The position numbers were made by a program, and so were the translations under genes. DNA of 64,000 bases from Anadara kagoshimensis (taxonomy: Eukaryota; Mollusca; Bivalvia; Arcoida; Arcidae). Below, one piece after another: positions 471 through 62,470 of the stretch. The notes beneath the pieces were generated by a model. It was given only the letters and a program-made list of their open reading frames with translations. It had not been told where the DNA came from and ran no database searches. The stretch lies in assembly GCA_021292105.1 (NCBI GenBank), contig CM037861.1, forward strand, positions 52,168,920-52,232,919, written 5' to 3'. Positions within the stretch are counted from its first letter, which is position 1. Each line of letters opens with the position of its first letter.

Positions 471-1649
471 CCAAATTTAGCTAAGGAAATACGTTGCATG
501 AGGGAGTATACCTTAGCTTTTGAGGAATTTCAAATTTTTACTTGCAGCAAATTTAGCCAGTAGTATATTTCAGGGTCAGAATAAGTCTCTAATTGAACCC
601 TACTCACATTTACTTTAAATGTTAAGGTTATATAGCAGAATTTAACATAATAAATACTTGATGGAAATTAGGATCGCAATGTGCCACTTGCTCATAACCT
701 TGTGCCATTTGATCATAACCTTTGTGTAGAATATCCAGAGAAATTTGTATGTTGCAAATTCCTGGAATAATGTTTTACAGGTGTGATTTCATATCCAAAT
801 GTTAGCTTAATATTAGCTTAGCATAAATATTAAGGATATCACATGGCATGTTGGTGAACCAAATTATTATTAATTATTTCAAGGTTGTATCATATGACTG
901 GCAATATTTCATATGATTTTTTTTAAAAATATTTTCAAAGTTGTAAGCAGCTGACAACAACAGCTTCAAGGTTACAACTTAATGGTGTTTTAGTAGATGT
1001 TATGCAATATCAGGTTTTAATGGAAATTTTCAAAAAAGAAATTATATACTCTGACAAAAAAGTTCCATATACTGTATAAGAAGAAATATTTGTGGGGAAA
1101 AATATTCGAGATTTTTATGGTGACTCTTGTACCATGAATATATCTTCTTCGTGATTTTTTTCCCTTTTTTTAATTTCTTTTGGTACAATTTCCCTACAGC
1201 TAAAACCCTGAAAAATTCTTACCGCAAAATAATTTATAAGGTCAAAACTGGGAAAGTTTCCTCTTATACACTATAAGTAAATACAAGTTTAATCAATATT
1301 AAAATGATAAAAATTGATAAATAAAACCCCTCCCCACCCCCACCACCACCCACACACATACACACAGAAAAACTAATTAAAAATAACAAGGATTTCAATA
1401 CGAACCAAAAACCAAATAAAGAAAATATTATTCAGTGTATCAATAAAATAAATACTATATTTAGTCACAGCTAACAATCAGATATTTCTTACAGGCTTTA
1501 CACAAATAAAAAGTTTATTTTGAGTTTAGTCAATACCGAGGTTATATGGAAAAATACCAGAATATATTGATCCTTGGAAGCAGTACAACTTGACAGGCAC
1601 CAAAATCAACATTCAGTAATGAACAAAATTGATGATCAAAAAAACATGA
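471..1649. other. AT-rich stretch without recognisable gene
   Basis: No open frame of note and no convincing exon on either strand. It holds short simple tracts (poly-T near 918 and 1157, a C/A-rich 'ccccacccccaccacc' run near 1330) and a short echo of the window's first bases at 1225-1258 ('gtcaaaactgggaaagtttcc'). Confidence 0.5.
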
Positions 1650-3045
1650 TATACACACTTATTATAGCGGTTATTATTTGGAAAGCATTCAAGTTCAAAA
1701 TAATGGAAAATGGCTCAAGATTATGAGCCTTTATAAACACACTTATAGCCATTATTATTTGGATAAAATTCTAGTTCAAAACGACGTAAAATGACTCAAA
1801 ATATATAAGATAAAATATATAAACACACTTCTTATAGCCATTATTATTTGGATAAAATTCTAGTTCAAAACGACGTAAAATGACTCAAAATATATAAGAT
1901 AAAATATATAAACACACTTCTTATAGCCATTATTATTTGGATAAAATTCTACTTCAAAATGATGTAAAATGACTCAAAATATATAAGATAAAATATATAA
2001 ACACACTTCTTATAGCTGTTATTATTTGGATAAAATTTTATTTCAAAACGAAGTAAAATGACTCAAAATATATAAGATAAAATATATAAACACACTTCTT
2101 ATAGCCATTATTATTTGGATAAAATTCTACTTTAAAATGATGTAAAATGACTCAAAATATATAAGATAAAATATATAAACACACTTCTTATAGCTGTTAT
2201 TATTTGGATAAAATTTTAGTTCAATACGAAGTAAAATGACTCAAAATATATAAGATAAAATATATAAACACACTTCTTATAGCCATTATTATTTGGATAA
2301 AATTCTACTTTAAAATGATGTAAAATGACTCAAAATATATAAGATAAAATATATAAACACACTTCTTATAGCCATTATTATTTGGATAAAATTCTACTTC
2401 AAAATGATGTAAAATGACTCAAAATATATAAGATAAAATATATAAACACACTTCTTATAGCCATTATTATTTGGATAAAATTCTACTTCAAAATGATGTA
2501 AAATGACTCAAAATATATAAGATAATATATAAACACACTTCTTATAGCTGTTATTATTTGGATAAAATTCTAGTTCAAAATGAAGTAAAACAGCTCAAGA
2601 CTAAGACCCTTTAATATATAAAGTATTCATATTTTCGTCCTTTTGATATCTTTTCGACATCTTGAAAAAAATGATAGTTTTTTTTTTTAATTTTTGTACA
2701 AGCACTACTAATGATTGAGGAATTGTATTCCGAAACGGCGGTCTAGTGCTGTAAAAATTAAAACTAGTGTAATATGTTATATAAACACCATTTTAATAGC
2801 CATTAATATTTGAATAACATTCAAGTTAAAAATGATTAATAAAAAAACGAGACTATAATATCTACACTTATTAAGGTTCTGTTATTATTTGGATAACTTT
2901 CAAGTTCAAAATAATGTAAAACCGCTCAAGATCATGAGCCTATAATATGTAGATAAACATCTTATAGCCATTATTATTTGGATAACATTCTAGTACAAAA
3001 CGATGTAAACAGACTTAAGACTATTGAGCCTATAATTCAGATTGT
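1650..3045. repeat. Satellite array, 89-bp monomer
   Basis: The motif 'aaacacactt' recurs at 1821, 1910, 1999, 2088 and 2177, an exact 89-bp step, and continues to about 2533. More diverged monomers occupy 1650-1820 and 2790-3045. A monomer contains 'ttattatttggataaaatt', a 'caaaaYgaNgtaaaatg' block and 'tatataagataaaatatat'. Two monomer types ('agccatta' with 'aatgatg', and 'agctgtta' with 'acgaag') alternate in the middle, suggesting a partly dimeric 178-bp higher-order unit. The array is interrupted at 2625-2785 by an interspersed repeat copy. Confidence 0.92.
2625..2785 (-). repeat. Interspersed repeat, copy 2 of an inverted pair
   Basis: Reverse complement reads 'tttttacagcactag', 'cggaatacaattcctca', 'tagtagtgcttgtac' and 'tttttcaagatgtcgaaa', matching 325-470. 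Monomer-like 89-bp sequence lies on both sides, so this copy appears to have inserted into the satellite array rather than bounding it. Confidence 0.65.
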
Positions 3046-6000
3046 TACATTAATACTTGGAAAAGTCTGGCGTGTTTGAAGGGCTCTTCCCATAATCCAA
3101 TAAGTCAAGACAAATGCCATGTTAAGTGGTAGTTAATGCCATAAACATGGATGTAACAGCATTAATAACATTATAAAGGATTTAAAGGATTTTCTTAGAA
3201 AATCGATCTGGCCTTCATTATCATACAACTAGACACGAACCAATGGAAATATGAACAGGGCTGCTACAAAATGGCTAAGTATGCCAGATAGGAGGAAAAT
3301 ACGAGTAAAACAAGAAAACATGATTTAAATCTAGATTTATTGGTTAAGATCCTCAACATAAGTCATTCATCAGCCAATAAAAAATATACATGGCTTCATT
3401 CATCACCCAATGAAAAAAAAAGAGATGCTCGATGACTTTGTTACCTATTAATATTGATTATTACCCCAGTGAAGTGGAAATAAAAGAGAAGGAGGATGAC
3501 ACTTCCATCTGGATGGATTTACACAAGTTTAAATTAAGTTTTTTTTTTAATGATTATGTTTGCTTACAATTACTATCAAATATGAATGGTTTCCTCTGGG
3601 GGAAAAGCCTAAAATTTCCAAATTTAAGCACTAAACTTTCCAAAATAACAGTGATATCAAAACACGAACAAATTAAATCTAGTTGTCCTTCAAACCACAA
3701 AACTTTAAGTTACTGTTAAAATTAAGTTATAACTTGTTTTAGCTATTTGACTTGGTGGCTTGTGTTTGTTTCTTCAGAGTCAAATACACACTGTTCACAA
3801 ATAGCTACACTGCTTCAGTCTAAGCAACAATGGGGTTCACTGCTGTACCACTTGATCAATACCACTTAACATTTGTGCGGAACATTTTTCTGTTTTAAAA
3901 AACGATAACATCAAAAACTCATGGAATAACATTGTTTTTTTCAGGAAAACATCATCTTTTGTTATTCCAATATCCATGGAAATATGTGTTCTGCACAAAC
4001 CTTAGCGGGTATATCAAGGGGTACAAAGGTTAACTCCATTATGCCAAAATTAAACTGTTGCTAAATTTTCTAAGTTTTAACAAGAATAAAACAAGTTACT
4101 TTATAAGGATGATATGTTCAGTTAATTAAATCTTGTGACAATAATTTATTCCTTACTGCTAATTTTGATCATTCATCACCATATACAGTTCATAACCCGG
4201 AAACAAATCATGAATATGATTAAGACTACATTGGTTTATTCTGGGCATTCAATATTATCCATCATTTATATACACCCCCACAGTCAATAAACAGTAGTAG
4301 ATAAAGATAAGCAATCAAATCTTCCAAAATCTACCAATCTGTAATATACAACTAAAAACTAATGGCACCATTGTTATCATTGGTCTGGTTATGCTTACAT
4401 GTTACAAACTTAAATTGATTGATCGATTGTTGGTCGATTGATTTATTGATTGTAGGGTCCCTAATGAAAAAGTTGTCTGAATGTAAGCATACTTTTTCAT
4501 GTTTTCAGAATTAATTCCAGAATTTTTTAAAATAAAATTAGAACAAATATTTTCGATACTTTGAACCTTTTCACGTTTTCAGAATGAATTCAGAATTTTT
4601 GAAAACAAAAATTAAAAACAAATATTTTGCGAAATACTCAGGCAAAATTTAGAATGGTTATTTCATGAGGTCATGGGGGTGGTTTTACGGTATTTAGTAA
4701 GATAAAGCTACATTATACACAAAAAGGGATGTTAACAAAAAGTCAAATCTAATTGAAATTTCCCAGAAAGTTACATGACTTCTGATATATGCAGCCTTAA
4801 TATGTCATTCAATAATTTCATACATATATTCCAGGTTTTATTTTTATACAACTTATTTTTAGATTTTCTTGGTATATCATTTATTAAATAGCTTTTTGTT
4901 TAATATGCAAAACATTTATCAGACTAAGACTATTTTTCTCTCAGTGTTAACTATAATCATCAGAATGGATTTTAGCTACAAGCTCTTCATCAACTTAGAT
5001 AGTTTCAATATCTCTAGGGAAACATTAGGTGATAATTACCACCATCACTTAATCAGCCTTCATTCAAACATTGTATTGATCCTGATTATACAACAAGCAC
5101 TGAGGAGCACACAGCCGTTAAATCTAAGCAACACAACTTTAACTTCATCACCTTGATCAGTCTTTTGGGCATCGTTTGATAACGATCTTTTGTGTAAATA
5201 ATCATCTATTGGTGTTTATCTTCATCACCTGGTACAAATTACATTTATTTCTTATTTAACAACTGAATGTCAATTGAAAAGTTAGCTAATCAAGATATTT
5301 TACAAATTCCTATGACATGTTACCAGTTATTACAAAAATCGGAATTAAAGCACACAAGATGTATCATGTACTTTGTGGAAACATTAATTACTGAAAATGT
5401 TACCACACCATTCGGGATTAAAACACACAATTTATTCACCCCCCCCCCCCATGAGAATTATGGCAAGTCATTTTTTGCTAAATACCTCAAGAATGAACAG
5501 ATTCTGGAAAGAAACTTCACACAATGCCTAAAATAAGATTTTTGAAAATTTCTACATACAAAAATCACCACATTTTCAGTAATATTGCACTTGCCAAGTC
5601 ATTCATATCAAGAAGGTCAAACAGAGTTGCTAGTTCTAAGATTTGACTCTATGACCTTGACCCTTGACCTATGCACCTAAATTTGGTATGTGACACATTA
5701 ATTCATGTTTGTTTACATTTGTGCCAAGTTTGATCAAAATCTATTCATGGACATATAAGATATGGAGCAGATATGATATTTGGGATGAATGGCCAGACAG
5801 ACAGATCCAATATATATACCCTTATCTTGGAATTCATTTTTGTGTGTGTATTTAGAGGGAGGGAGTTAAAAAGGTCTGGTCCACTGATTTATTAGTTTGA
5901 TCTACAATTTTACTTATACAAAGAGAATATTAAAAACACTAAATACATGTTTAAATCTTCAATCCTCAACTTTATAATACTCCTGAGAAATTAACATATG

Positions 6001-6110
6001 TGATTAACAATCTGAGATATACATGTATAAATCAATTTCAATCTCCTATCGTAGACACAGAGGCCAATTACATGTGGTAAAGCTAGTCTAAAATGTCTTC
6101 TTGTATTACT
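3046..6110. other. AT-rich region, no gene recognised
   Basis: Several frames of 60-95 codons are open (for example 3432-3719, 4869-5156 and 5267-5536, plus strand). Their translations are low-complexity, Asn/Ile/Lys/Phe-rich and resemble no family I know, as expected by chance in AT-rich DNA. Two parts look repetitive: 3588-3720, which resembles the interior of the TIR element at 35149-35410, and 5585-5830, with the 'gaccttgacccttgacct' and 'ggccagacagacagatcc' motifs seen in other repeats here. Confidence 0.45.
3588..3720 (+). repeat. Fragment of TIR element family Y
   Basis: Shares 'gggggaaa', 'aaaatttcc', 'aacagtgatatcaaaacac' and 'aaattaaatctagttgtcc' in order with 35180-35285, and with the reverse complement of 37655-37956. 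The outer ends of the element are missing, so this is a partial copy. Confidence 0.55.
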
Positions 6111-6159
6111 ACAGGGTTCTAAATTAGCTAAATGTCATTTGTATTATAGCAGGGTGTAT

Positions 6160-6405
6160 GAGTTACTGTAAAGGGGGAAATATTCGCATGGGGAAAAATT
6201 TAGCTTATTTCATGCTAAAGGAATTGCTGCAAAAATTTTACCCGTGCAAAAATGTCTACAATACAGGCTAATATATCATAATATATAGAATATACACCTG
6301 TTATATTGGTTACGTGAAAATTACACCCATGCGAAATGCCAAATTTCACAAAATTGCAAAATTTTCACCCAGCAAAGATAATTCCATTTACATTATCTGT
6401 CATTA
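6160..6405. repeat. Possible palindromic mini-element
   Basis: The left side has 'aaatattcgcatgggg' and the right side has 'acacccatgcgaaatg' and 'attccatttacat', which are roughly inverted. The arms are imperfect and the borders cannot be fixed. It may be a decayed TIR element. Confidence 0.3.
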
Positions 6406-6420
6406 GAAGTACAATTAACA

Positions 6421-6664
6421 GGCCCCAGTCCTTAACTAAAACTTTTCCTTAACTTATATTTTGGCAAATTTGAAATCTTAATTTATTTGTTGATTTTTAA
6501 GATATTCTGGAATTTAAGGTGTCATTTAAGATTATAACATTTATATTTAGTTTTGTAAAAAAAAAAAAATATAGGTAATTTGTAGTTCCAATAGAGCTTG
6601 TCAAAATTTGCTAAATTTAAGTACAGAAACATCTTAGTTAAGAATTGATTGTGAAACTTTGGCC
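6421..6664. mobile_element. TIR mini-element family A, diverged copy
   Basis: Begins 'ggcccc' with 'ccttaactaaaacttttcc' and ends 'catcttagttaagaattg', 'attgtgaaac' and 'ggcc'. Better preserved copies of the same layout lie at 14340-14598 and 50259-50521, where both ends read GGCCCCGGTTTCAC in inverted orientation. About 245 bp with no coding capacity, so it is non-autonomous. This copy has lost most of the outer left repeat. Confidence 0.6.
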
Positions 6665-6916
6665 AGGGTGGTATTAATGTTAGCTGCCAGACTAGAGTAC
6701 AACACATTGTATCAGATATTTGAATTAAAACAGGATGGTATTATGTCTATCCAACAATTGTCGGACACAATTTTAGGAAAATTTCAGAACAACATCACAA
6801 AATCTAGTCACTGTAATGTATTCAAATTGTCTCAAAAATTAAAAAAAAAAAATAATTTCAACTACCAACAGTTTCATACATGTAAGTAAAACCTACCTTA
6901 AAAGCCACCTATATAT

Positions 6917-8521
6917 ATGGTCAACCTGCTTTTAAAGGCCAGTAGAATTTTAACCCAATTGTCTTTATTTATAACTCCGCATGTGGGCTCTCTGAGACAA
7001 CAGCCGGTCCCAAGCCCGGATAAAGGAAGAGGGTTGGGCGTAGGGTTAGCAACCCACCCTGTAAAAAACCCACATGCTACAGAAACATTCACAACTACCC
7101 AAGAAACTTCAGTCCTGGAAGAAGAGGGTCCTGCTCCGACAGGACATATGACGTGCTGGAGCAAAAGCCAAAAGGAAGTTTCAGTGCCGACAACCCTTAT
7201 GTCAACCAGGACGGCCACCACCATCCGTACATGGAACGTCAAGACCATGTACGAAGCAGGGAAGGTAGCACAAGTGTCAGCAGAGATGCGCCGATACAAC
7301 ATCACCCTGCTAGGACTGAGGGAGACAAGATGGCTACAGGCTGGTCAACTAAGACTGGCTACAGGCGAACTCTTGCTGTACTCAGTACACGAAGATGAGA
7401 ATGCAGCACACACTGAAGGCGTAGCAATCATGCTTTCAAGAACAGCACAGAAAGCTCTGATTGGGTGGGAAGCGCACGGTCCAAGGATTATAACAGCAAC
7501 CTTCACCACCAAGAAGACGAACATCAAGATGAACGTAATCCAATGCTATGCACCCACCAATGACCATGACGAAGAATCCAAAGACCAGTTCTATAACAGA
7601 CTGCAGGCAGTCCTAGACAAGCTTAAGGACAAAGACATCAACATCCTAATGGGGGACTTAAACGCAAAGGTGGGATTGGACAACAGAGGCTATGAGGAAG
7701 TAATGGGACAACATGCTCTCGGAGAGATGAACGAAAACGGAGAAAAATTTGCCAACCTCTGTGGACTAAACAACCTTGTCATCGGAGGCAGCATCTTTGC
7801 CCACAAAAGGATACACAAGGCCACCTGGGTATCGCCTGACCATGTCACTGAAAACCAAATAGACCACCTCTGTATCAACAAGAAGTTTAGACGATCTCTT
7901 CAAGACGTGCGAGTGAGAAGGGGAGCAGACGCAGCATCAGACCACCACCTTCTGACTGTGAGACTCAAGATGAAGCTGAAGAGAACTGACAGGCAGACAG
8001 CAGGCAGGCTGAAGTACAACGTGAACGTACTGAAAGAACAAACAACTCAGGCAGCTTTTACCGTGAGCCTGAAGAACAGATTCCAAGTACTACAGGAGCT
8101 TATCACCGAAGACACCGATGCCCACGACCTTTGGAAAAGAACGAAAGACACCTTCACAGAAACATGCCAGGAAGTGCTTGGGCCAAAGAAGAAGCAAATC
8201 AAAGACTGGATCTCAGTGGACACCATTCAGACGATCCAAACCAGAAGACTCAAGAAAGAAGCAGTCAACACGAGCCGCACAAGAGTCAGCAAAGCTACAG
8301 CACAAGCAGAATACATACAGGCCCACAAGGAAGTGAAGAGGAATTTGAAAAAGGACAAAAGAGACTATATAGACAGCCTGGCAGAAGAAGCGGACGAAGC
8401 AGCTTATCACGGTAATATGAAGGAACTGTACATGATAACCAAGAAGCTTGCAGGCAAGACCAGAACGACCGATCAAAGACAAGCAGGGACAAACCATCAC
8501 AGACTCAAAACAACAGCTTGA
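6917..8521 (+). pseudogene. LINE endonuclease segment of broken ORF
   Basis: Open frame of 534 codons. The first 19 codons (6917-6972) belong to the host mini-element, not the LINE, so the annotated start is artificial; the element's own initiator is probably Met78 (7148) or Met95 (7199). Residues 103-350 form an exonuclease-endonuclease-phosphatase fold: TWNV with Asn107, RETRW with Glu136, YAPT, GDLNAKVG with Asp247 and Asn249, QIDH and SDHHLL with Asp342 and His343. All expected catalytic positions look intact. In active elements this domain nicks target DNA to prime reverse transcription. After about 8460 this frame leaves the consensus: the conserved linker before the reverse transcriptase continues in another frame, so codons after about 515 are out of frame. 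Related proteins are often labelled 'craniofacial development protein 2-like' in databases. Confidence 0.88.
6961..6972. repeat. Left target-site duplication of LINE
   Basis: GTCTTTATTTAT is repeated exactly at 10152-10163. Both copies correspond to one segment of the surrounding family B element (compare 'ttctttattcat' in the minus copy at 45651-45829), so this is a true target-site duplication. Confidence 0.9.
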
Positions 8522-8735
8522 GAGATGGGCGGAACACTTTGAGGAACTTCTCAACAGACCAGCACCTGAGGACCCTCCAAACATTCCTGAAGCAGATACT
8601 GACATTGAAATAAACTGCAATCCACCAACAAGAGACGAAATCATCCGCGCCATTAAGAAGATGAAGCACGGCAAGGCAGCCGGCCCAGATGGAATTCCCC
8701 CAGAAGCCCTCAAGACAGATGAAAACAACAGCTGA
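8448..8735 (+). pseudogene. LINE linker and start of reverse transcriptase
   Basis: This frame continues the LINE protein after a frameshift near 8455-8466. It carries the conserved linker with ERWAEHFEELLNRPAP and the motif KAAGPDGIPPEAL, the usual entry into the non-LTR reverse transcriptase domain (GPDGI box). It opens with a TTG, not an ATG, so it is not an independent gene. A second frameshift near 8715-8735 moves the protein into the next frame. The adjoining segments overlap it at both ends, as expected for small indels in one ancestral reading frame. Confidence 0.85.
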
Positions 8736-9720
8736 CATGCTGCTACCACTTTTTGTGAAGATCTGGGAACAGGAAGAAATACCAACAGACTGGAAAGATG
8801 GACACATCATCAAGCTACCAAAGAAGGGAGACCTCAGCAGCTGCGAGAACTACAGAGGCATCACACTTCTGTCAGTACCAGGGAAAGTGTTCAACAGGAT
8901 ACTTTTAGAGAGGATGCAGGATGCAGTGGACGTCAGGCTCCGGGACCACCAGGCGGGCTTCAGGCAAGACAGATCCTGTACCGACCAGATTGCCACACTA
9001 CGTATCATTGTCGAGCAGTCCCTAGAGTGGAATTCCTCACTGTACATCAACTTTGTGGATTTCCGCAAGGCTTTTGACAGTCTCCACCGTGACACCCTGT
9101 GGCAGCTCCTACGACACTACGGAATCCCAGGCAAACTGACACGAATCATCAAGGAGTCATACGAGAGGATGGCTTGTCAGGTCGTTCATGGAGGCCAGTT
9201 AACACGTCGCTTCAACGTAAGGACCAGCGTACGTCAGGGATGCCTTCTGTCACCATTCCTGTTCCTCCTCGCCATTGACTGGGTGATGAAGCGGACGACA
9301 GATGGACAGAGGGACGGCATCCAATGGACCCTCTGGACTCAGCTAGACAATTTAGACTTCGCCGACAACCTCGCTCTGCTATCCCACAATCGGCAACAGA
9401 TGCAGAACAAAACCACAAGCTTGGCTTCCCACTCCTCCCAAGTCGGCCTTCACATCCATCCTGACAAAACCAAGATACTGAAGATCAACGCCTCCAGCAC
9501 AGAGGTAGTGAAGTTGGGAGACAACAACTTGGAGGAGGTAAAGTCCTTCACGTACCTTGGGAGCGTGATCAACCAGCAGGGAGGAACAGATGCAGATGTG
9601 AAGACCCGCATCGGAAAGGCAAGAGCATCATACAAAGCCCTGAAGAACATCTGGCGATCGCACCTAATCTCATCTCGCACCAAAATCCCCTGTTCAATTC
9701 CAACGTCAAATCAGTATTAG
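8689..9720 (+). pseudogene. LINE reverse transcriptase core, catalytic Asp lost
   Basis: About 335 codons covering the fingers and palm of a non-LTR reverse transcriptase: LPKKGDLSSCENYRGITLL, QAGFRQDRSCTDQI, FVDFRKAFDSL with the first catalytic Asp, and VRQGCLLSPFLFLLAIDW. The normally invariant FADD box reads FADN (9358-9369, last codon AAC), so one of the two adjacent metal-binding aspartates is replaced. The thumb follows with [10 protein letters not shown]. The frame ends soon after a third frameshift near 9680. The enzyme would have copied the element RNA into DNA at the nicked target; this copy should be inactive on the FADN change alone. Confidence 0.9.
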
Positions 9721-10142
9721 TGTATGGGGCAGAGACGTGGCGAACAACAAAGACCACCATCAAAAATGTGCAAACATTCATAAATTCCTGCCTACGCGGA
9801 ATACTGAAGATCCACTGGCCAGTTACCATCAGCAACACAGATCTTTGGGAGAGAACCAACCAAATGCAAGCAGAAGAAGAGATCAGAAGAAGAAGATGGA
9901 GATGGATTGGTCACACCCTTAGGAAACCACCGACCAACATCACTCGCCAGGCCCTGACCTGGAATCCTCAAGGGAAGAGAAGGAGAGGCAGACCCAAGAA
10001 CACCTGGAGAAGGGACCTCGAGGCAGACGCCAAGAAAACCGGCTGCTCCTGGGGGGAGCTAGAGCAGATCGCCCAGGACCGGAGACAGTGGCGGGCGGTT
10101 GTGGATGGCCTATGCCCCTCTAGGGGTTCAAGGCCTAAGTAA
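9720..10142 (+). pseudogene. LINE C-terminal segment
   Basis: Continues the LINE protein in another frame from [12 protein letters not shown] (the usual block after the thumb) through [30 protein letters not shown] and [13 protein letters not shown]. This basic tail is typical of RTE-like and related LINEs in invertebrates. It stops at 10142, inside the TAAG tail, so the 3' untranslated part is essentially nothing but the microsatellite. The opening codon here is not an ATG; it is only the C-terminus of the ancestral protein. Confidence 0.86.
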
Positions 10143-10151
10143 GTAAGTAAA

Positions 10152-10163
10152 GTCTTTATTTAT
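10152..10163. repeat. Right target-site duplication of LINE
   Basis: Exact copy of GTCTTTATTTAT at 6961-6972, directly after the TAAG tail. The sequence then resumes family B element sequence ('gttaatt...aacctgtatataa'). Confidence 0.9.
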
Positions 10164-10296
10164 GTTAATTAAACCTGTATATAAGAATCACCTGCCCATA
10201 AAGGCCACTTTTCTGGTTCCCTTAGGTGGCCTTTATAGACAGGTTTGACTGTATTGCTAGACAGCAATAGGATAAAGAACTTTAAAAACTTAAATG

Positions 10297-11176: not shown

Positions 11177-11383
11177 GTGCTTTATGCTAAAAAAAGTTTC
11201 TTTCACTCATACCAAAGCAGTCAGTTCTAAAGTGATGAAAAAAGCACTAACCAAACCAAAACCAAGAGAAAAGGGGGAAATAATCACTTTTTGATGTTTA
11301 TTAATAAATATTAATAATACTGTACTATGCATACATGTATGTGCACAAACAAACACAAATACACACACTCAGAAATATAAACA

Positions 11384-12925
11384 AGAGGCCCATGGGCCTT
11401 AACGCTCACCTGTGACCTTTGAAGCCATGAGCTTCATTCAAATATCAAAATGATAATTCGGCCAACATTCTAATATGCATCCCTATACAAACAGTTTATA
11501 GTTTTTGAGATAAATAATCATTTCAGTATTTGTTTGTATCTGTGATCTTGACATTTGAACCCATGCTCTTCATTCATAAATCAAAATGACCACTGTGCCA
11601 GTACCAACAATATTCTAATATACATGCCTATACAAAAAGTTAATAGTTTTCAAGATAATTACCCATTTAGGTATTCATTCGCATCTGTGACCTTGACCTT
11701 TGAACCCATGACCTTCATTCATATATCAAAATGATCATTAGGATAATACCTAATTATTCTAATATACATGCCTATACAAAAGGTTTATAGTTTTTGAAAT
11801 AAATAATCATTTCAGACCTTGTTCACATCTGTGAACTTGACCTTTGAACCCATAACCTTCATTTATATATCAAAATGGTTGTTAGGCTAATACCTACAAT
11901 ATTTTAATATACATGCCTATACAAAAAGTTCATAGTTTTTGAGATAAATAATCATTTCAGTACTTGTTTACATCTGTGACCTTGACCTTTGAACTCATGA
12001 CCTTTATTCATATATCAAAATGACCATTGGGCCATTACCTACAATATTCTAATATACATGCCTATACAAAAAGTCTATAGTTTTAGAGATAAATAATCAT
12101 TTCAGTACTTGTTTACATCTGTGACCTTGACCTTTGAACTCATGACCTTTAATTATATATCAAAATGACCATTGGGCCATTACCTACAATATTCTAATAT
12201 ACATGCCTATACAAAAAGTTCATAGTTTTGCAGATAATTAACTATTTTGGTAACTTTGTACATCTGTGACCTTGACCTTTGAAACCATGAACTTAATCAA
12301 TATATCAAAATGATCGTCATGTCAATACCTACAATTAACCAAAAATCCTACATCATTATCACCAGAAATGTTTTAAAAAAAGCATTTTTTATCAAAGGTC
12401 AAAGACTGGGACATGACCTTGACCTTTGACCTTGACATCAATCGGAAGAAAATCGCAAGACAAGATCAACAGTGAAAACGCCATACAATTATCTTCAGCC
12501 ATTATGAAGTTATAACAATAAATGTCTCATTTTAAAAATTACATAATTTTACGCAAAAAACGCGTAACCTATTTTTCGTCCAATTTTCATGAAAAACACA
12601 ATTTTAGTGTATCTAGGTATCCTGAATCCAAATATCCAATCAAAATTTGCCTGCACCTTTTGGTTTCAGAGAAGAAGATTTTTTTGTCTTTTGGCTATTT
12701 ATAGTAACGGCAGCCATATTGTTGGGCGTGGTCAAACCCCGAACACAATTTTGAAAGCCTGTTACCCAGGCATAATAATCACCAAGTTTCATCAAATTTG
12801 GCTCAGTAGTTTTGGTGGAGAAGATTAAAATGTAAAGTTTACGCACGACGCACGACGAACGACGCACGACGGACGGTGATAGATAGCAATAGCTCATCTG
12901 AGCCTTTCGGCTAAGGTGAGCTAAA
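11384..12925 (+). mobile_element. Helentron-like non-autonomous element with ~145-bp internal array, copy 1
   Basis: Starts 'caagaggcccatgggcct' then 'gctcacctg'; ends in a hairpin 'gctcatctgagcc' / 'ggctaaggtgagc' followed at once by CTAA. The 5' 'gctcacct' and 3' 'aggtgagc' form subterminal inverted repeats. Inside are about six copies of a ~145-bp monomer containing 'catctgtgaccttgacc', 'tatatcaaaatga', 'atatacatgcctataca' and 'gataaataatcatttc'. A unique 3' part includes 'gcaaaaaacgcgtaacc' and a CGACG-rich run near 12845. A 3' hairpin, CTAR end and central tandem array fit Helentron/HINE elements (inference). No protein is encoded. Confidence 0.75.
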
Positions 12926-20510: not shown

Positions 20511-20937
20511 TTGGCTGACATGTAGCACATACACTTTGACCTTAACTTCTGACATTTACCCCAACTCCATTAGCAATGATTAAAGAATATCAGATTACAG
20601 TGGGCTCATAAACCCTAGGGCTTAATACTGCTGCAAGAAACCTACAAATATTGTAGTGTCCCCATGGCAATATGTTTTTCCCTTCCATTATTTGGTTTCA
20701 ATCATCGTAAATCCAAACCACAAAGTTGCACTGGCAGATTAACATAATGACTGTCCAATGCTAGGGACATAAATGGAGGTTGTCCAGTCCCCACATATAG
20801 GAAAAAATATAAAACTCAAGGAACAGTGTCTGGATGAATGGATGGTCAGATGGACTGAAGATAATGGAACTTGAACTTAAAAAATGAAAAATAAATAATA
20901 AACATAATTTTATTATGACAATACTGCAGTCAAGTGC

Positions 20938-21011
20938 TATAGTATATGAGATGCTCAGATAACTAAGTGATTGCTAAAATGTTATTAAATTCCAAAGCCT
21001 CGTTATAAATA
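20938..21011. repeat. Left flank of filled insertion site (duplicated at 22427)
   Basis: 'tgctcagataact' to 'gcctcgttataaata' matches 22440-22502 closely ('tactcagataaca' to 'gcctcattataaata'). The family B element begins directly after the TA at 21010-21011. Confidence 0.85.
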
Positions 21012-21189
21012 CAGTCAAACCTGTCTATAAAGGTCACACAGGGGACTAGTAAAAGTGTCCTTTATGGGCAGGTGACCCTTATATACAGGTTCAAATTACA
21101 TGAATAAAGAACAATTGGGATATAATTCTACTGGCCTTTTTAAGCAGGTGGTCCTTGTATAGAGGTGGTTTTTAAAGCAAGTTTGACTG
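21012..21189 (+). mobile_element. TIR mini-element family B, intact 178-bp copy
   Basis: Starts CAGTCAAACCTGTCTATAAA, ends 'gcaagtttgactg', and is flanked by TA on both sides. Inner blocks include 'gggcaggtgacccttatata', 'caggttcaaatta', 'aaagaacaattggga' and 'gcaggtggtccttgtataga'. The arms are partly self-complementary, so the element can fold on itself. It is non-coding. The same length (178 bp) is found at 62293-62470. TA duplication fits a Tc1/mariner-type mobiliser (inference). Confidence 0.92.
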
Positions 21190-21262
21190 TAGATGTAAAA
21201 CCTTATAATGCCAATTGATGATTTTGCCACCTCACATATCGCCACACTATTAACCATTTTTT

Positions 21263-21560
21263 AGACCACTTTGGTATCTGAGTTGGTAAAATGTGTGCTC
21301 CTTAAGTGGGAGGTTTTTGGTTTAAACCCTCGACCTCGTCTGACCCAAGACTTGAAAGTGGGTAGTGACTGTTCTTGAGCCAAGTACTCTACATTGCAGA
21401 ATTAAAGTTGTGGTTCTTTTGGATGGGAACTAAAATTAAATGAGGTCCCGTGTCAGGGAAGATGTGCACAGGTAAAATTTCTGCACCTTTTCCTATAGCT
21501 GGCAATATCTTCATATAGGTGAAATATGTTTGACTAGAACATTAAACACAATTACTCATT
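21263..21560 (+). mobile_element. tRNA-derived SINE, diverged
   Basis: Parallel to 43229-43565: 'gagttggta' (box A remnant), 'tccttaagtgggaggt', a decayed box B, 'tctgacccaagacttgaaag', 'tgggtagtgactgttctt', 'gatgggaact', 'atttctgcacc', 'cctatagctgg' and the tail 'gaaatatgtttgactagaac' with 'attaaacacaatta'. RNA polymerase III promoter boxes are damaged. Confidence 0.75.
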
Positions 21561-21689
21561 AACCATTTCTTATCTAATTCTTTCTAAGCCTCTCTTGATC
21601 TATAAATCCAAACCCTTTACACTCCTAAAATCTGACAGAAAATTTAAAGAATGGCAATGAAGCAAGGTTTTACTGTGCATAATGATGAG

Positions 21690-21885
21690 TTGAGATGTGT
21701 AATGGTGTTTAAGATCCCAGTCAAGAACTTTTATTGAGACATCGCCAACTATAGGCAAAGGTTCAGAAATTCTGCCTGTGCATTGTGCTAATGACATTAC
21801 ACAGCAGGGTTATGCATCATGCAACACCTACCATGACACAGGACCTTGTTTATTTTAAGTTCCCATCTGAAAGAACTGCTATTTT
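21690..21885 (-). mobile_element. tRNA-derived SINE, 5'-truncated
   Basis: Minus-strand copy: the plus strand shows 'aatggtgtttaag', 'cagtcaagaac', 'gagacatcgccaactatagg', 'cagaaattctgcc', 'catgacacaggaccttgttt' and 'gttcccatctgaaa', the complement of the SINE body and tail seen at 43380-43555. The tRNA head is missing. Confidence 0.75.
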
Positions 21886-22426
21886 CATTTCGTAATGCCA
21901 AGTGCAACTGTACATAATGTTAAATACCAGTTATTCCTTATTAACTTGCTGCTGTGGCAAATGATTACAAACAATAGTTACCACTTACTCAACATCAGTA
22001 GCGTTACCTTAATATTTCATGAAAACACTACAGGTAGCTATCATACATACCCTTCTCCTCAATTTTTGAATCATTTTATAATTATCATAATTTAAAAAAA
22101 ATGAAATTACAGATAACTAATTGTATATTTGACTTGATTTGTGGGTGGCAGGTCATTGATTGGTTAATCAGTCTGACATCAAAATCATTTCCATGCTAGA
22201 TGTCTGGCATAATTTGAAGGTCAAAGTTCTTGTGCATATTAAAACTATGATGTCTAGTCTAGGTATCAACTGATTTTCATTTACCCCATTGGTTCAAAAT
22301 TGTATATAACATGGGACATACCATATCACAAAACTGTAAGGGAGAGAGATCAAGGTAAATCACTAGGGTGTGGGAGTTCTGGGGGTGTGGGGTTAAGAGC
22401 AAGGGCAATGCAGAAATTTTTTAGTG
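21886..22426. other. No gene recognised
   Basis: The plus frame at 21895-22095 is short and hydrophobic without family resemblance. Nothing else stands out. Confidence 0.45.
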
Positions 22427-22524
22427 CTATATTACTTGAAATACTCAGATAACAAAATGATTGCTAAGATGTTATTAAATTTCAAAGCCTCATTATAAAT
22501 ACAGTGAAACCTTATAATGGCAAA
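22427..22524. repeat. Empty-site paralogue of the family B insertion at 21012
   Basis: Matches 20938-21011 and then 21192-21212 without the 178-bp element between: 'cattataaata' is followed directly by 'cagtgaaaccttataatgg', versus 'gatgtaaaaccttataatgc' after the element in the filled copy. Confidence 0.85.
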
Positions 22525-31484: not shown

Positions 31485-33948
31485 AACAAACAAGAGCCCA
31501 TGGGCCTGATACGCTCACCTGATAATACTAATGGCTAGCTGATAGATTTAAAGACAACATAAATACTAAACCCCAATGACTTTTTTCTTTACATCATGAT
31601 AACACTTTGTTTTAATACCTACAACATTCTAGTATACATGGCTATACAAAAAGTTAATAGTTTTCAAGATAATTAAACCATTACAGTATTGTTTCACATC
31701 TGTGACCTTGACCTTTGAACCCATGACCTTTTTCTATAACATCAAAATGATCGTTGTATCAATACCTACAACATTCTAATATACATGCCTATACAAAAAG
31801 TTTATAGTTTTGGAATGAATTAACCATTTCGGTATTGTTTCACATCTGTGACCTTGACCTTTGAACCCATAACCTTTTTCTATACATCAAAATGATCGTT
31901 GTATCAATACCTACAACTAAATACATGCCTATACAAAAAGTTTATAGTTTTCGAGATAATTAACCATTTCGGTATTGTTTCACATCTGTGACCTTGACCT
32001 TTGAACCCATGACCTTTTTCTATACATCAAAATGATCGTTTATCAATACCTACAACATTCTAATATACATGCCTATACAAAAAGTTTATAGTTTTCGAGA
32101 TAATTAACCATTTCGGTATTGTTTCACATCTGTGACCTTGACCTTTGAACCCATGACCTTTTTCTATACATCAAAATGATCGTTGTATCAATACCTACAA
32201 CATTCTAATATACATGCCTATACAAAAAGTTTATAGTTTTCGAGATAATTAACCATTTCGGTATTGTTTTGCATCTGTGACCTTGACCTTTGAACCCATG
32301 ACCTTTTTCTATACATCAAAATGATCGTTGTATCAATACTTACAACATTCTAATATACATGCCTATACAAAAAGTTTATAGTTTTCGAGATAATTAACCA
32401 TTTCGGTATTGTTTCACATCTGTGACCTTGACCTTTGAACCCATGACCTTTTTCTATACATCAAAATGATCGTTGTATCAATACCTACAACATTCTATTA
32501 TACATGCCAATACAAAATGTTTATAGTTTTCGAGATAATTAACCATTTCGGTATTGTTTCACATCTGTGACCTTGACCTTTGAACCCATGACCTTTTTCT
32601 ATACATCAAAATGATCGTTGTATCAATACCTACAACATTCTAATATACATGCCTATACAAAATGTTTATAGTTTTCGAGATAATTAACCATTTCGGTATT
32701 GTTTCACATCTGTAACCTTGACCTTTGAACCCATGACCTTTTTCTATACATCAAAATGATTGTTGTATCAATACCTACAACATTCTAATATACATGCCTA
32801 TACAAAAAGTTTATAGTTTTTGAGATAATTAACCATTTCGGTATTGTTTCACATCTGTAACCTTGACCTTTGAACCCATGACCTTTTTCTTTTCATCAAA
32901 ATGATCGTTGTATCAATACCTACAACATTCTGATATACATGCCTATACAAAAAGTTTATAGTTTTCGAGATAATTAACCATTTCGGTATTGTTTCGCATC
33001 TGTGACTTTGACCTTTGAACCCATGATCTTTTTCTATACATCAAAATGATTGTGTATCAATACCTACAACATTCTAATATACATGCCTATACAAAATGTT
33101 TATAGTTTTCGAGATAATTAACCATTTCGGTATTGTTTTGCATCTGTGACCTTGACCTTTGAACCCATGACCTTTTTCTATACATCAAAATGATCGTTGT
33201 ATCAATACCTACAACATTCTAATATACATGCCTACACAAAATGTTTATAGTTTTTGAGATAATTAACCATTTGGGTATTGTTTCGCATCTGTGACCTTGA
33301 CCTTTGAACCCATGACCTTTTTCTATACATCAAAATGATCGTTGTATCAATACCTACAACATTCTAATATATATGCCTATACAAAAAGTTTATAGTTTTT
33401 GAGATAATAATTATAATCAGAGGTAAAAAAAATTAGGTCACGACCTTCACAATTGACCTTGACCTCCTTTTGAAGATACTAACAAGAAAATGTCAAAACT
33501 GAAAACATCTGGTCAAATAGTCAAGTTATAACAATTTGAAGCTATTTTACGATTTTTTCAAAATTAAACGCAAAAACGCGTTACCTATTTTTTATCGGAA
33601 TTTCACAAAATGAACAAATTATAGGCTTAAGCCCCTAGAGAAGCCAAATATCACATCAGAATTTTTCTCCAATCAGTACTTTCGGAGAAGAAGATTTTTT
33701 AAGATTTTTGCACCCCTAGGTCACCTTGACCTAGTTATGGTAGCCATGGCAATGCCACGAACAATCTGAATTGCACCGGCCCATATATACTTCTGACAAA
33801 GTTTCATTAAAAACTGTCTGGTAGTTTCAGAGGAGAAGTCGAAAATAGGTGTTAACGACGCACGCACGCACACACGATTGCACGCACACACGCACATACA
33901 CACGCTGCGCTATGCCATAAGCTCACATGACCTTCGGTCAGGTGAGCT
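31485..33948 (+). mobile_element. Helentron-like element with ~145-bp internal array, copy 2
   Basis: Starts 'caagagcccatgggcctg' with 'cgctcacctga'; ends with hairpin 'gctcacatgacc' / 'ggtcaggtgagc' followed by TAAA, so hairpin plus CTAA as in copy 1. The internal array has about thirteen monomers of 144-145 bp ('catctg' steps at 31983, 32127, 32272) containing 'gtgaccttgacctttgaacc', 'catgacctttttctata', 'catcaaaatgatcgttgta' and 'gagataattaaccatttcgg'. The monomers are nearly identical, so the array is recently homogenised. The 3' unique part includes 'gcaaaaacgcgttacc' and a CGCACG-rich run, both shared with copy 1. It is inserted inside the 49-bp minisatellite. Confidence 0.82.
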
Positions 33949-35732: not shown

Positions 35733-36810
35733 TCTGAATGACACCACCTAGTAAATGAGTATCTCACAAGTGTGGCTTCAACTGTCATCTACTGAATTTG
35801 ATAAATGGGTTTTCTTGACCTTGGTTATTAATGTCTGGTGTCAGTATAATATGGCAAGAAGGTTTCAAATGTTAAGTTTTCTCTGATTTCTGAATGACAC
35901 CACCTAGTAAATGAGTATCTCACAAGTGTGGCTTCAACCGTCATCTACTGAATATGATAAATGGGTTTTCTTGACCTTGGTTATTAATGTCTGGTGTCAG
36001 TATAATATGGCAGGAAGGTTTCAAATGTTAAGTTTTCTCCAATTTCTGAATGACACCACCTAGTAAATGAGTATCTCACAAGTGTGGCTTCAACCGTCAT
36101 CTACTGAATTTGATAAATGGGTTTTCTTGACCTTTGTTTATAATGTGTGGTGCCAGTTTAATATGGCAGGAAGGTTTCAAATGTTAAGTTTTCTACGATT
36201 TCTGAATGACACCACCTAGTAAATGAGTATCTCACAAGTGTGGCTTCAACCGTCATCTACTGAATTTGATAAATGGGTTTTCTTGACCTTTGTTTATAAT
36301 GTGTGGTGCCAGTTTAATATGGCAAGAAGGTTTCAAATGTTAAGTTTTCTACGATTTCTGAATGACACCACCTAGTAAATGAGTATCTCACAAGTGTGGC
36401 TTCAACCGTCATCTACTGAATTTGATAAATGGGTTTTCTTGACCTTGGTTTATAATGTCTGGTGCCAGTTTAATATCGCAAGATGGTTTCAAATGTTAAG
36501 TTTTCTCCGATTTCTGAATGACACCACCTAGTAAATGAGTGTCTCACAAGTGTGGCTTCAACCGTCATCTACTGAATATGATAAATGGGTTTCCTTGACC
36601 TTGGTTTATAATGTCTGGTCTGGTGTCAGTATAATATGGCAGGAAGGTTTCAAATGTTAAGTTTTCTCCAATTTCTGAATGACACCACATAGTAAATGAG
36701 TATCTCACAAGTGTGACTTCAACCGTCATCTACTGAATATGATAAATAGGTTTTCTTGACCTTGGTTTATAATGTCTGGTTATGGATGGTTTCAAATGTT
36801 ACCCGTTTTC
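35733..36810. repeat. Satellite array, 156-bp monomer
   Basis: 'ctgaatgacaccac' recurs at 35733, 35890, 36046, 36202, 36358, 36514 and 36675, steps of 156-157 bp with one 161-bp step caused by a short 'tctgg' insertion. Monomers contain 'tagtaaatgagtatctcaca', 'aagtgtggcttcaaccgtca' and 'ggtttcaaatgttaag'. About seven copies, highly similar. No coding signal. Confidence 0.93.
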
Positions 36811-36954
36811 TAGCACTTACAAAGTTGAAAGATCATGAAGAATCTTCATGCAATTACAGAGATTGAAGATCAGAAACAATTGCACAAACTCACATACAAC
36901 ATGAATCTGTGTTTAGATTCATCCTTTATATCAAATAGATATACATATTATATA

Positions 36955-41012: not shown

Positions 41013-41429
41013 GTATAATTTGCAGTAAAGATCATGCATATGGTCACTAATTTAAATATGTTTCTTTTGATTTGCTGTAAAGTGCCAAGGTGCTCTTCTT
41101 TAATATAAACTACAGTTGAATCTGTCTATACGGACACCGACTGGACCATTATAGTTTTTGTTCATTTCCTAATGATATCATTTGGTGTAGACAGGTTGTG
41201 AATTTATTCTGAAGGGTTTCGGGTTGAAATCAGGACCAGTGGTTCATGTTGTTGCCTGAGGTATGACATATAAATCGACATTTTTGCACTTAGTGAGGGT
41301 GAGTATATAATACCCAAAAAGAAACCCACTCATATCTGCTAAAAGTGGGTTATAAGTTCTGTTGATTATTGCTGATTTCAAATTAATGAATCTTTGGTTT
41401 ACTGAAATCTCAAGGGATCTAGCCCACAA

Positions 41430-44726: not shown

Positions 44727-44881
44727 CAGTCAATCTTCTCTATAAAAGCCACCAAAGGGAACCAGTAACATGGTCTTTATGGACAGGTGGCCCTTATATA
44801 CAGGTTCAAATAACACGAATAAAGAGCAATTGGAAAGCAGGTTGACCTCATATATAGAGGTGGCCTTTAAGGCAGGTTCCA
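44727..44881 (+). mobile_element. TIR mini-element family B, diverged copy
   Basis: Begins TA then 'cagtcaatcttctctataaa', with 'gggaaccagtaacatgg', 'ggacaggtggcccttatata', 'caggttcaaataacacgaat' and 'tagaggtggcctttaaggca'. The terminal 'tttgactg' is lost and about 20 bp are missing in the middle. Confidence 0.82.
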
Positions 44882-45650
44882 CATACTGTATTGTAAAGTC
44901 AATTAATCAATAGATATAAACCTATTAATTATCAACTTCTACTACGTATTTTATCATGAGTTTAAAAGCAGGCGGCTCTTATAGTCATCAGATACTTGTC
45001 AAAAAGTAATCCCAATTTTTACAATGGCAGAAGGATAAAAACTTGTAAAACCGAAAGACGATTCCTAGAAATTGGAGTGTTGGCATTCCTACTGTAAGTT
45101 TTCTGTTTCCCAGAAAAACAATAATATGTGTTAAAACTGAAAGTACAATAATAATTTTTATCATCTTCAAGATCAGATGTGGTCTTCTAGTACAAACTTT
45201 AATATAGTCCACCTAGAGACCTTCCACACCAAGTTTAGTTTCAATTGGCCCTTTTGTTTCAGAGGAAAACAAGGTTTACCAAAGCACATTTCCCCATGCC
45301 ACACACTGTATAGCTCAGCTGGCTCAAAATCTTCCACATTATACAACATAGTAGATATATAAGGATTGATTGATCATGTTTTACAAATGGAAAGTTTTAG
45401 AACACATCATTAGCACATTGCAAAACAAGAGTTACAACATAGATTTCAACTCTGTTTGTCCACATATGGAAAAGGGCTTTTCTTGACATAGAGGTTACCG
45501 TAGTAATGATGTTTAACATCCCCCATGACACAGGTCCTTGTTTACTTTGACATTTTGAGACTTCTACTGATTGGAATTACACAGTATATAATGGATCTTC
45601 AACACTTAAAATCAGTGTACCAGCAGTCTCTAAGTCACTGTATAGGTGTA
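44882..45650. other. No gene; possible SINE scrap
   Basis: 45500-45560 has 'gatgtttaacatcccccatg' and 'acacaggtccttgttta', the complement of the SINE tail and body with the middle deleted. The small frames here are not family-like. Confidence 0.4.
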
Positions 45651-45829
45651 CAGCCCAACCTGCCTTAATGGCCACCTCTATATAAGGGCCACCTGCTTAT
45701 ATAGACCAGTAGAATTGTATCCCAATAGTTCTTTATTCATATTATTTGAACCTGTATATAAAGGCAACTTGCCCATTAAGGCCACCTTTACCAGTTCCCT
45801 TGGGTGGCCTTTATAGACAGGTTTGACTG
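45651..45829 (-). mobile_element. TIR mini-element family B, minus orientation
   Basis: The right end 'ctttatagacaggtttgact' then G is followed by TA; the left end 'cagcccaacctgccttaatg' is mutated. The inner blocks match the 178-bp copies; length 179 bp. Confidence 0.87.
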
Positions 45830-53440: not shown

Positions 53441-54646
53441 TAATTAACCTGTAATCTCTCAGCTAACTTTTTTGTCACAGTAGAGACACGTGTCTCTGTC
53501 TTCAATGATTTTTAGAAAAATGTATTAAAAATCAATAAAAAAAAAAAAGTCAACAATATCGAACACTTCAGTGCCAAATAAAAGAGTTGGGAGATGCCAA
53601 TATAATGTGTATGTTATACCCAATAGGTATGTAGACCTTGAGCATGTTGTCGGTAGAGATAACGGTAAATGATTATCAGATGTGTGCAGTGCCAAAGTCT
53701 TCATTAGAAGATGATTGTGTCCTCGGATTACCTCCTTTTTTTGCCAGATAGTGTAAATAAGTGATTAAACAGCGCAAAAAGTCTTTTAGCGAATTACGAT
53801 GTTTCGTATAAGATAGGACGTTGTATATTTTACACCCGATGGCTAAGATGGCTCGTGAGAGTAATTATGCTTACTGTATTTTGCACCCGATGGCTAACAT
53901 AGTTTGCGAGAGCAAGCATAGTTGCAACACTAAAATTGTTGTGTTAACTGTGTGAGCATGACAATAATTCTTAGCTTGCACCAACAAAACATGGTTGAAT
54001 TAAATAGTTTTATTGAATCTGCATTACTCTTAAGGAGCATGATCACAGTGTTAGTGGTGTGTGAATGTATGATTTTGGCCAGAGCACTATAGCAACGTTT
54101 AAAACGGTTGCAAGTAATGGAACATTGACGCTGCAATCTGCTTGGCCTCATCTATACATGTTTGCTTTCTATAGAGGTCGATGACAAAGCTACAAGAAGT
54201 ATTGAATTTGGAAATCAATGTCTTCTGTTACGGCACTTAAAAATTTGAGGGTACATTATAAAACCCCTTCAATCATGAGTTTTCATATGAGCAACTAAAA
54301 TCAATTGTTCAACCGGTTTCCAATCAGCAAATTTCATTTTAATTAGCTCATGCTTAACAATAGTTTTAGTTATAAAATAAACAATTTTCAAATTTTATTT
54401 ATTGTGATTAAATCTCAAATGTAAATATATCTGGTTGTTTTTGAAGGAAATTAAACAATGACCAATTTGTTGATTGTTGTGTGTATAATTGCGGTGTAAT
54501 GCTCGATTGTATTGTTGTGTGTATAATTGCGGTGTAATGCTCGATTGTAACGGCTGATTAATTTATAGACGTTAATTGTGCTAATCACTTGTTTACGATT
54601 ACCAGTTCGTTTCAGCTTCTAATAAAATGAAAATATATTTTTGTTT
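53441..54646. other. Intronic, short local duplications
   Basis: 53840-53930 contains two copies of 'cacccgatggctaa(g/c)at' followed by 'g(t/c)gagag'. 54481-54550 contains 'gtgtataattgcggtgtaat' with 'gctcgattgta' twice, 38 bp apart. No exon was seen. Confidence 0.55.
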
Positions 54647-54802
54647 AAGGAATGACATTTACTTTGACTGTACTGCATGGAGTTATGCAGTAGAATGGAC
54701 TGTCTCAAATTAAATGAAAGCCGAAGGCTTTCATGGTTATTTGAGACAGTCCATTCTACTGCATAACTCCATGCAGTACAGTCAAAGTAAATGTCATTCC
54801 TT
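54647..54802. repeat. Perfect 64-bp inverted repeat
   Basis: 54647-54710 and 54739-54802 are exact reverse complements over 64 bp, from 'aaggaatgacatttactttg' to 'ggactgtctcaaat' in the left arm. The 28-bp centre holds a further small stem ('tgaaagcc' / 'ggctttca'), so nearly the whole 156 bp can form one hairpin. It lies in PDZ intron 1 and would be in the pre-mRNA. 55071-55107 resembles part of one arm. Confidence 0.95.
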
Positions 54803-54899
54803 ATATTTACAATCATTTGTAACTTTTTCAAATAAACACAACATATAAACTGACATTTTAACACTTTTCATAAAAGAAAAACAACTTTAACTACCTCGT

Positions 54900-60030: not shown

Positions 60031-60707
60031 GGCTCTCAAAAGAAGACCTAGTTTGCCTAATTGTCTTATTTCATTCTTTAGTTGGGTGCCGCTCATGGTT
60101 GGTTTGGACATTGCAAAATATATATTTTTCAGGTACAAATTTATGTGTTCATCTAAGGATATAAATAACTCGTGTCAGAGTTGTATCTTTGTCTATAGAT
60201 CTATGAATGGATCAGAATTCAGATGACCTAGCACCTTACTTAAGGTGCAGTATATATAGGTAAGCTGGCAGGTATAAGTAATTACGTCTTGTCAGAACTT
60301 AATATTTATTACAAGATGTTGTTACTGTGTCTGTGAGTGATACTAATGCGTTAGTATACATAGTATATATCAGCCGTATGTTTTACACTGATGAAGGTCA
60401 TAACGCAGCCAGCTTCTGTAGATATTTCCACTTGTTAACTAAGAGATTAGTACATATATAGGCCAATATTTATTATTGAAAAATTATGATTATTGGTTTG
60501 TTACACAGAAGTGTTAGATTGTTTTGTCCGAAACGCAAAATTTCAAATACAAAAAGTTTAAATTAAGTAAAGATTATTAAGGTCCTACTAAATTACATAC
60601 TCTCATCAATGGGTATCAAGTTGTTACACTATCTCTTGACGTCAAAAGTCGTTAGTTTGAGTTGCATATTTAGGAACCACTAGTTTTGTACACACCACCG
60701 ACTCCTG
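60031..60707. other. Intronic, nothing recognised
   Basis: No exon or defined repeat was seen between the ATACCCCGC repeat and the LINE. Confidence 0.45.
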
Positions 60708-61893: not shown

Positions 61894-62292
61894 GTTTGTA
61901 AAATGAACGAGATGGTCAACGCTGTAATTACCCCACTGGGCATCATGACGTTATTCAAAGTGTCACTGTCAATGGTTTTATAATCGATGGTTTCAAACTC
62001 TCTTGTTCCGTTTGTGATTTCCTGTTCGTGGTTATACGTCCGGATGCGCTTAGTGTTTACCCTTCTGGAAAACACGATCCCATTCCCTTCATGGTGGATG
62101 TTGGCCTTTTCAACTTAATTTGCTAGTTTTCAAAGTTTTTATTTGCATTTGGGATTGTGATTTAAACGTAGACTGTTTGTTTGTGTTTTATTAGATTTGT
62201 ATACAAAATTTCCAACTACAAATCATTTCAATAAAATCAGTGTGTTAATGTTGAGTTTATTCTGTTGCAAGACAAATTAAATCTGCAAATTA
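61894..62292. other. Intronic, with a family F scrap
   Basis: 62075-62200 has 'tggccttttcaacttaattt' and 'gctagttttcaaagttttta', the complement of the family F middle section. Confidence 0.45.
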
Positions 62293-62470
62293 GAACTCAA
62301 ACTTATCTATACAGGCGCCATAGGGAACCAGTAAAGTGGTCTTTATTGGCACGTGGCTCTTATATACAGGTTCAAATAACAAGAATAAACAGAAATTGGG
62401 CTAAACTTTTACTGGCCTTAAAAAGCAGGTGGTCCTTTTATAGAGGTGGCCTTTAAAGCAGGTTTGACTG
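62293..62470 (+). mobile_element. TIR mini-element family B, 178-bp copy before exon 2
   Basis: Flanked by TA on both sides. The left end 'gaactcaaacttatctatac' is mutated; the right end 'ggcctttaaagcaggtttga' then CTG is intact. Exactly as long as 21012-21189. It ends 110 bp before the splice acceptor of PDZ exon 2. Confidence 0.9.

Follow-up and report, generated by a model that had tools for sequence, protein, structure and literature searches.

A 178-bp Stowaway-like MITE of Anadara kagoshimensis and a paralogous element-free site that probably retains bases of the lost element

Results

A block of approximately 100 bp that carries a 178-bp MITE is repeated without the element 1.5 kb away in the window (the whole stretch of 64,000 nucleotides that was analysed), and this repeat is real. 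The element-free copy at 22423-22523 appears, with moderate support that falls short of proof, to be a site that lost the element and retained its first 2-11 bases, rather than a clean pre-insertion site. A history of insertion, block copying, imperfect loss, inverted duplication and a later LINE insertion is the best explanation of the locus as a whole, and a likely one.

Structure and copies of the element

The element (copy c1, 178 bp, 21012..21189, forward strand) lies between TA at 21010-21011 and TA at 21190-21191, and its ends read 5' CAGTCAAACCTG and 3' GTTTGACTG. The initial annotation had described a TA-flanked 178-bp element with inverted termini here, which was confirmed, and the letters and coordinates that it quoted were right to within a few bases. 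In the window consensus, the TIRs were 26-27 bp long, started with CAGTCAAACCTG and had a single mismatch and a single gap across 27 bp. The element measures 178-179 bp. A 17-bp unit taken from the element itself, ACCTGTCTATAAAGGCC, repeats part of the TIR; in the window consensus it has a forward copy close to the left end, reverse copies at 46, 63, 122 and 139, and a weak reverse match (6 mismatches) at 155-156. A total of 8 matches at ≤6 mismatches was counted with the unit itself included and overlaps allowed, whereas 500 random sequences from a first-order Markov model averaged 0.3 matches and never exceeded 3, and single copies held the unit 3 to 6 times at ≤5 mismatches. None of the listed ORFs (≥100 aa) overlapped 21012-21189, and 178 bp is too short for a transposase. 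The prediction of a non-autonomous, non-coding, TA-inserting MITE of the Tc1/mariner Stowaway-like kind is well supported by these sequence features; the superfamily was assigned because of the TA target, the ends and the features of known MITE superfamilies described in PMC2872659. Judging from this anatomy, a transposase supplied in trans would cut at the element ends and paste the element into a TA.

Four other copies were found in the window. Copies c2 (179 bp, 45651..45829, reverse strand), c3 (62293..62470, forward strand) and c4 (44727..44888, forward strand, with an internal deletion) had TA on both sides. The initial annotation had taken c3 as an agreeing 178-bp copy, which was right for its intact right end and its TA flanks; its left end has diverged (TA-GAACTCAAAC) and its length of 178 bp results from compensating small indels. 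Copy c5, on the reverse strand, is interrupted by a LINE, with its 5' half at 10152..10251 next to TA 10252-10253 and its 3' half at 6885..6972 next to TA 6883-6884. Overall, TA adjoined 10/10 ends of the five copies, against a background of 9.3% of dinucleotide positions. At 41111-41206, TACAGTTGAATCTGTCTATACGGACACC is followed by a rough inverted counterpart (by eye), which may be a degraded relative of the MITE.

A search of the genome (1.115 Gb, 36 contigs) with the element produced 41 matches on many contigs, with 40 of 6266 first-look candidates scored. The 30 most similar of the 41 matches, a non-random sample that includes c1 and its duplicate, were inspected as loci: 28 measured 177-180 bp, and TA stood at the left end in 28, at the right end in 23 and at both ends in 22. 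The borders given for c1 are right because the other copies show them, with TA at 10/10 window ends and at both ends of 22/30 loci. That the element is a local satellite or chance repeat and no transposon is extremely improbable: the repeated 17-bp units inside it would suit such an origin, but the copies are dispersed over many contigs, nearly fixed in length and mostly flanked by TA. The family is an ordinary, abundant MITE, and a considerable part of bivalve genomes is occupied by MITEs according to PMC10294476. The 64-kb window had no Rfam matches and the viral contigs had no matches to two patterns. A 20-base pattern also hit a bacterial contig, which had an 18-base run in common with the element and little else; this was taken as a chance match. 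Among the papers listed for the element end sequences in an open-access library, none was a transposon paper by its title.

Filled and empty copies of the block

The left part of the filled block (20933..21011, forward strand) was identical at 69/79 positions to that of the empty copy (22423..22501, forward strand, with TA at its end). BLAST of 20933-21022 against 22423-22512 showed 87.8% identity over 90 bp, ungapped, with an E value of ~1e-27. The right part is GATGTAAAACCTTATAATGCC in the filled copy (21192..21212, forward strand), with the same letters in the filled copy of the inverted duplicate, and lies at 22513..22523 (forward strand) in the empty copy. The right flank at 21195-21214 matched 22504-22523 at 18/20 positions, a match that is weak alone (E 0.03-0.06) and collinear with the left one; its score was equalled in 1/1000 random window segments, and this exception, which scored 53, was presumably the query's own place. 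Since the left block and the right flank both match, the repeated block is real, and the statement of the initial annotation that the flanking sequence recurs here without the element was upheld.

Between these two parts the empty copy carries the junction CAGTGAAACCT (22502..22512, forward strand), and the ungapped homology of the filled and empty copies extends 11 bp into the element (CAGTCAAACCT vs CAGTGAAACCT). The empty copy reads TA-CAGTGAAACCTTATAATGG and starts with TACAGTGAAACCT. The element starts with CAGTCAAACCTG, and on the right of the filled copy TA-GATGTAAAACCTTATAATGCC follows it; after the TA, the empty copy equals the element start in 10/11 bases. The junction is a probable remnant of the element, and retention of 2 to 11 bases fits equally well. 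Among the 11,947 TA sites of the window on both strands, 6 matched the first 11 bases of the element at 10 or 11 places, of which 5 were element ends and the sixth was the empty site. The gap in the best-scoring alignment was 181 bp long rather than 178+2 and could be placed in ten equivalent ways, and the empty copies show CAGT after the TA with the second TA absent. Because the homology extends 11 bp into the element, the filled/empty pair alone gives neither the left border nor the TA duplication. The exact borders that the initial annotation drew from this pair were correct but are fixed by the other copies, and its reading of the TA duplication from the single locus was not confirmed.

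Inverted duplicate and order of events

A genome search with the left block showed four matches: the pair described above and a second pair, arranged likewise but in inverted orientation, on the same contig at a distance of approximately 0.93 Mb. Pieces across window positions 1-64000, with gaps and several large indels, aligned inverted to C5:51.214-51.284 Mb, mostly at 90-98% identity (pieces of ≥300 bp and ≥88%). This counterpart may be a segmental duplication or result from a haplotype that entered the assembly twice. All five MITE copies were also present in it, and the counterpart of c1 was 98% identical in the same context. The right flank is TAGATGTAAAACCTTATAATGCC in both filled copies, and the two empty copies share the sequence TACAGTGAAACCTTATAA. 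As both empty copies share the junction, it is older than the larger duplication, and it is an old change, not a recent private one. When the duplicate was used to infer the ancestral state of the filled and of the empty block, the two differed at 7/79 positions. A fifth copy of the block as outgroup was not found in the genome.

Copy c5 provides a different case. The LINE inside it (6973..10151, forward strand), with endonuclease and reverse-transcriptase frames, is bordered on each side by the 12 bases GTCTTTATTTAT (6961-6972 and 10152-10163), a target duplication. In the inverted duplicate the c5 MITE is unbroken, one copy of the 12 bases is present and the LINE is absent, and the flanks compared at this site (73 and 79 bp) were 100% identical between the window and the duplicate. 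The duplicate's c5 site is a genuine clean pre-insertion site for the LINE, in contrast with the MITE's own filled/empty pair, and it helps to order the events: block duplication came first, then the larger duplication, then the LINE. The stretch 6885-10251 was also considered as an autonomous element and rejected, since the LINE frames, the 12-bp target duplication and the unbroken MITE of the duplicate identify it as a nested insertion in which the MITE halves flank a LINE.

Other repeats were observed in the window. An insertion of ~1.2 kb with a reverse-transcriptase fragment at 60691-61894, with an apparent 6-bp target duplication TTTGTA, is absent from the corresponding site of the duplicate. 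A 145-bp tandem repeat family forms two arrays approximately 20 kb apart (11467-12345 and 31628-33515), and no alignment to the duplicate was among those listed for 11382-12922. Tandem arrays with units of 89 bp and 156 bp are located at 1653-2664 and 35733-36817, and at 54646-54803 two 65-nt arms separated by 28 nt form a perfect inverted repeat.

Loss scar or pre-insertion site

A deletion that keeps 2-11 element bases scored 131 in alignment and a clean site 121. A clean site needs 2 substitutions and an indel in approximately 11 bp, and a partial loss needs 1 substitution. The likelihood of the best deletion relative to the clean site was ~600-5000 in a first comparison and 1800-7800 in a second, which was run mostly at the lower divergence of 7/79 given by the inferred ancestral blocks. 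Averaged over breakpoints local to the element ends, the ratio was 16-118 in the first comparison (with a divisor of 440 pairs, labelled 460) and 66-255 in the second. A flat average over all breakpoint pairs gave 0.56-4 and 1.8-7, respectively, so that with a flat breakpoint prior deletion has little or no advantage over the clean site. In simulations under the clean model, the observed advantage of loss was reached in 0, 1, 1 and 4 of 400 runs, in 14, 16 and 37 of 4000 further runs and, at the pre-duplication divergence of 7/79 (8.9%), in 6 and 14 of 6000 runs; overall, in approximately 0.1-1% of runs.

These results bear on the claim of the initial annotation that a local duplication predates the arrival of the element, i.e. 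that the block was duplicated first, that the element then entered the TA of one copy and that 22423-22523 is its untouched target, with any likeness to the element start due to chance mutation around a shared AAACCT. This origin agrees with a left flank that ends in TA in both copies and with right flanks that share GT.AAACCTTATAATG, it offers a simpler history with no loss, and it is not rejected when all deletion breakpoints are weighted equally. However, the 2 substitutions and the indel within approximately 11 bp would have to recreate CAGT.AAACCT by chance, and the simulations reached the observed advantage of loss rarely. An untouched target is rather unlikely on balance; the junction matches the element start in 10/11 bases and loss of the element fits better, so the claim of a pre-existing duplication was not sustained.

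The element-age test was compatible with either order to a varying degree, with P ~0.11 for evenly split divergence and 0.76 if all divergence lay on the filled branch; its divergence of 18/171 was measured on a window consensus that included the joined c5 row carrying two LINE bases. Copy c1 differed at 15/178 positions from a consensus built from copies chosen for their likeness to c1.

A further alternative is that the block ancestrally read TACAGTGAAACCT, e.g. because another Tc1/mariner-type element ended there, that the MITE entered that TA, and that the right flank of the filled copy later changed to GATGTAAAACC. CAGT starts are common to other Tc1/mariner elements, CAGTGCTTGGCC ends were present in 8/30 DDE_3 loci, and random mutation of the empty tail often destroyed the CAG start (675 and 770 of 2000), which all suit this reading. 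It is nevertheless improbable: the changed right flank is the same in both filled copies, which places the changes before the larger duplication, TACAGTGAAACC has no second exact match in the window, and the left block has four genome matches only, unlike a dispersed repeat.

For the preferred reading, partial loss of the element, simple Tc1/mariner footprints (CA, TG, CAG or CTG with both TAs intact) were tried and fitted worse than the clean site. If a transposase caused the loss, repair must therefore have deleted the right TA together with part of the flank. The word AAACCT is present in both the element start and the right flank, and a deletion between the two words explains the junction as well as a transposase cut followed by resection.

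Search for an autonomous partner

The initial annotation had proposed to look for an autonomous relative with the same TIRs. A search for DDE_3 transposases gave 1547 first-look candidates and 150 scored matches. Of these loci, 30 were inspected together with 1.5-kb flanks and another 20 through 801-bp downstream pieces, a length at which an end could be overlooked; MITE ends enclosed the transposase in none of the 50. At one locus (L054), MITE ends stand 783 bp apart, with the DDE_3 match beside and outside them; the longest open stretch between the ends is 122 aa and by eye resembles a LINE tail fragment. This MITE copy (L054:157-939) has approximately 675 bp of other sequence inside it, apparently an insertion. 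End repeats of their own were found in 12/30 DDE_3 loci (L043, L046, L047, L049-L052, L055, L057, L059, L065 and L066), with CAGTGCTTGGCC in 8 and CACCCAACAAAA in 4, and full-length copies of other Tc1/mariner-like families are therefore present in the genome.

Discussion

From the junction we infer both that it is a loss scar and how the loss may have come about. The element would have inserted at a TA, and a block of approximately 100 bp carrying it would then have been copied 1.5 kb away. One of the two block copies would have lost the element by imperfect excision or by a microhomology deletion. This event would have spared the 5' start of the element (a few bases, CAGT, or as many as 11) and taken out its remainder along with the second TA and some adjoining bases. 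Afterwards a segment that spans the window underwent an inverted duplication, and the LINE then split c5 only in the window's copy.

The element resembles Stowaway-like and other Tc1/mariner MITEs in being short and non-coding, in its TA duplication and TIRs and in its high copy number; excision that leaves a few terminal bases is described for such elements. Footprints of 2-4 bp of element beside the 5' TA were inferred for Stowaway losses (PMC1925063), and Stowaway and mariner excision is said to leave short terminal sequences (PMC4561436). PMC1925063 also has two flanking-deletion cases, whose status as losses is left open, and cites one such case for Osmar5 in yeast. The element differs from Stowaway-like MITEs in its further 17-bp units, one forward and approximately five reverse within 178 bp. 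Sleeping Beauty, an IR/DR-type Tc1 element, shares repeated motifs near the ends and a TA target, and leaves a footprint at excision (PMC7827188); its terminal repeats are ~220 bp long with two transposase-binding direct repeats each, whereas the units here are 17 bp long and only putative sites. The comparison of an element-free sequence with a filled one is also the principle of the RESites used for MITE-like insertions, e.g. ATon (PMC3422177), but the empty copy here keeps bases that match the element start and is probably not a pre-insertion site.

A more specific reading, in which both empty copies are a fossil transposase excision footprint (with CAGT left behind after resection of the right TA and flank) and the 17-bp units are extra transposase-binding sites, is tentative and perhaps doubtful. 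If it is true, the sequence of insertion, block copying, excision and larger duplication would be recorded at one locus. The element is of an ordinary kind, and the locus is useful as a corrected example: before a paralogous 'empty site' is called pre-insertion, its junction should be checked for bases of the element.
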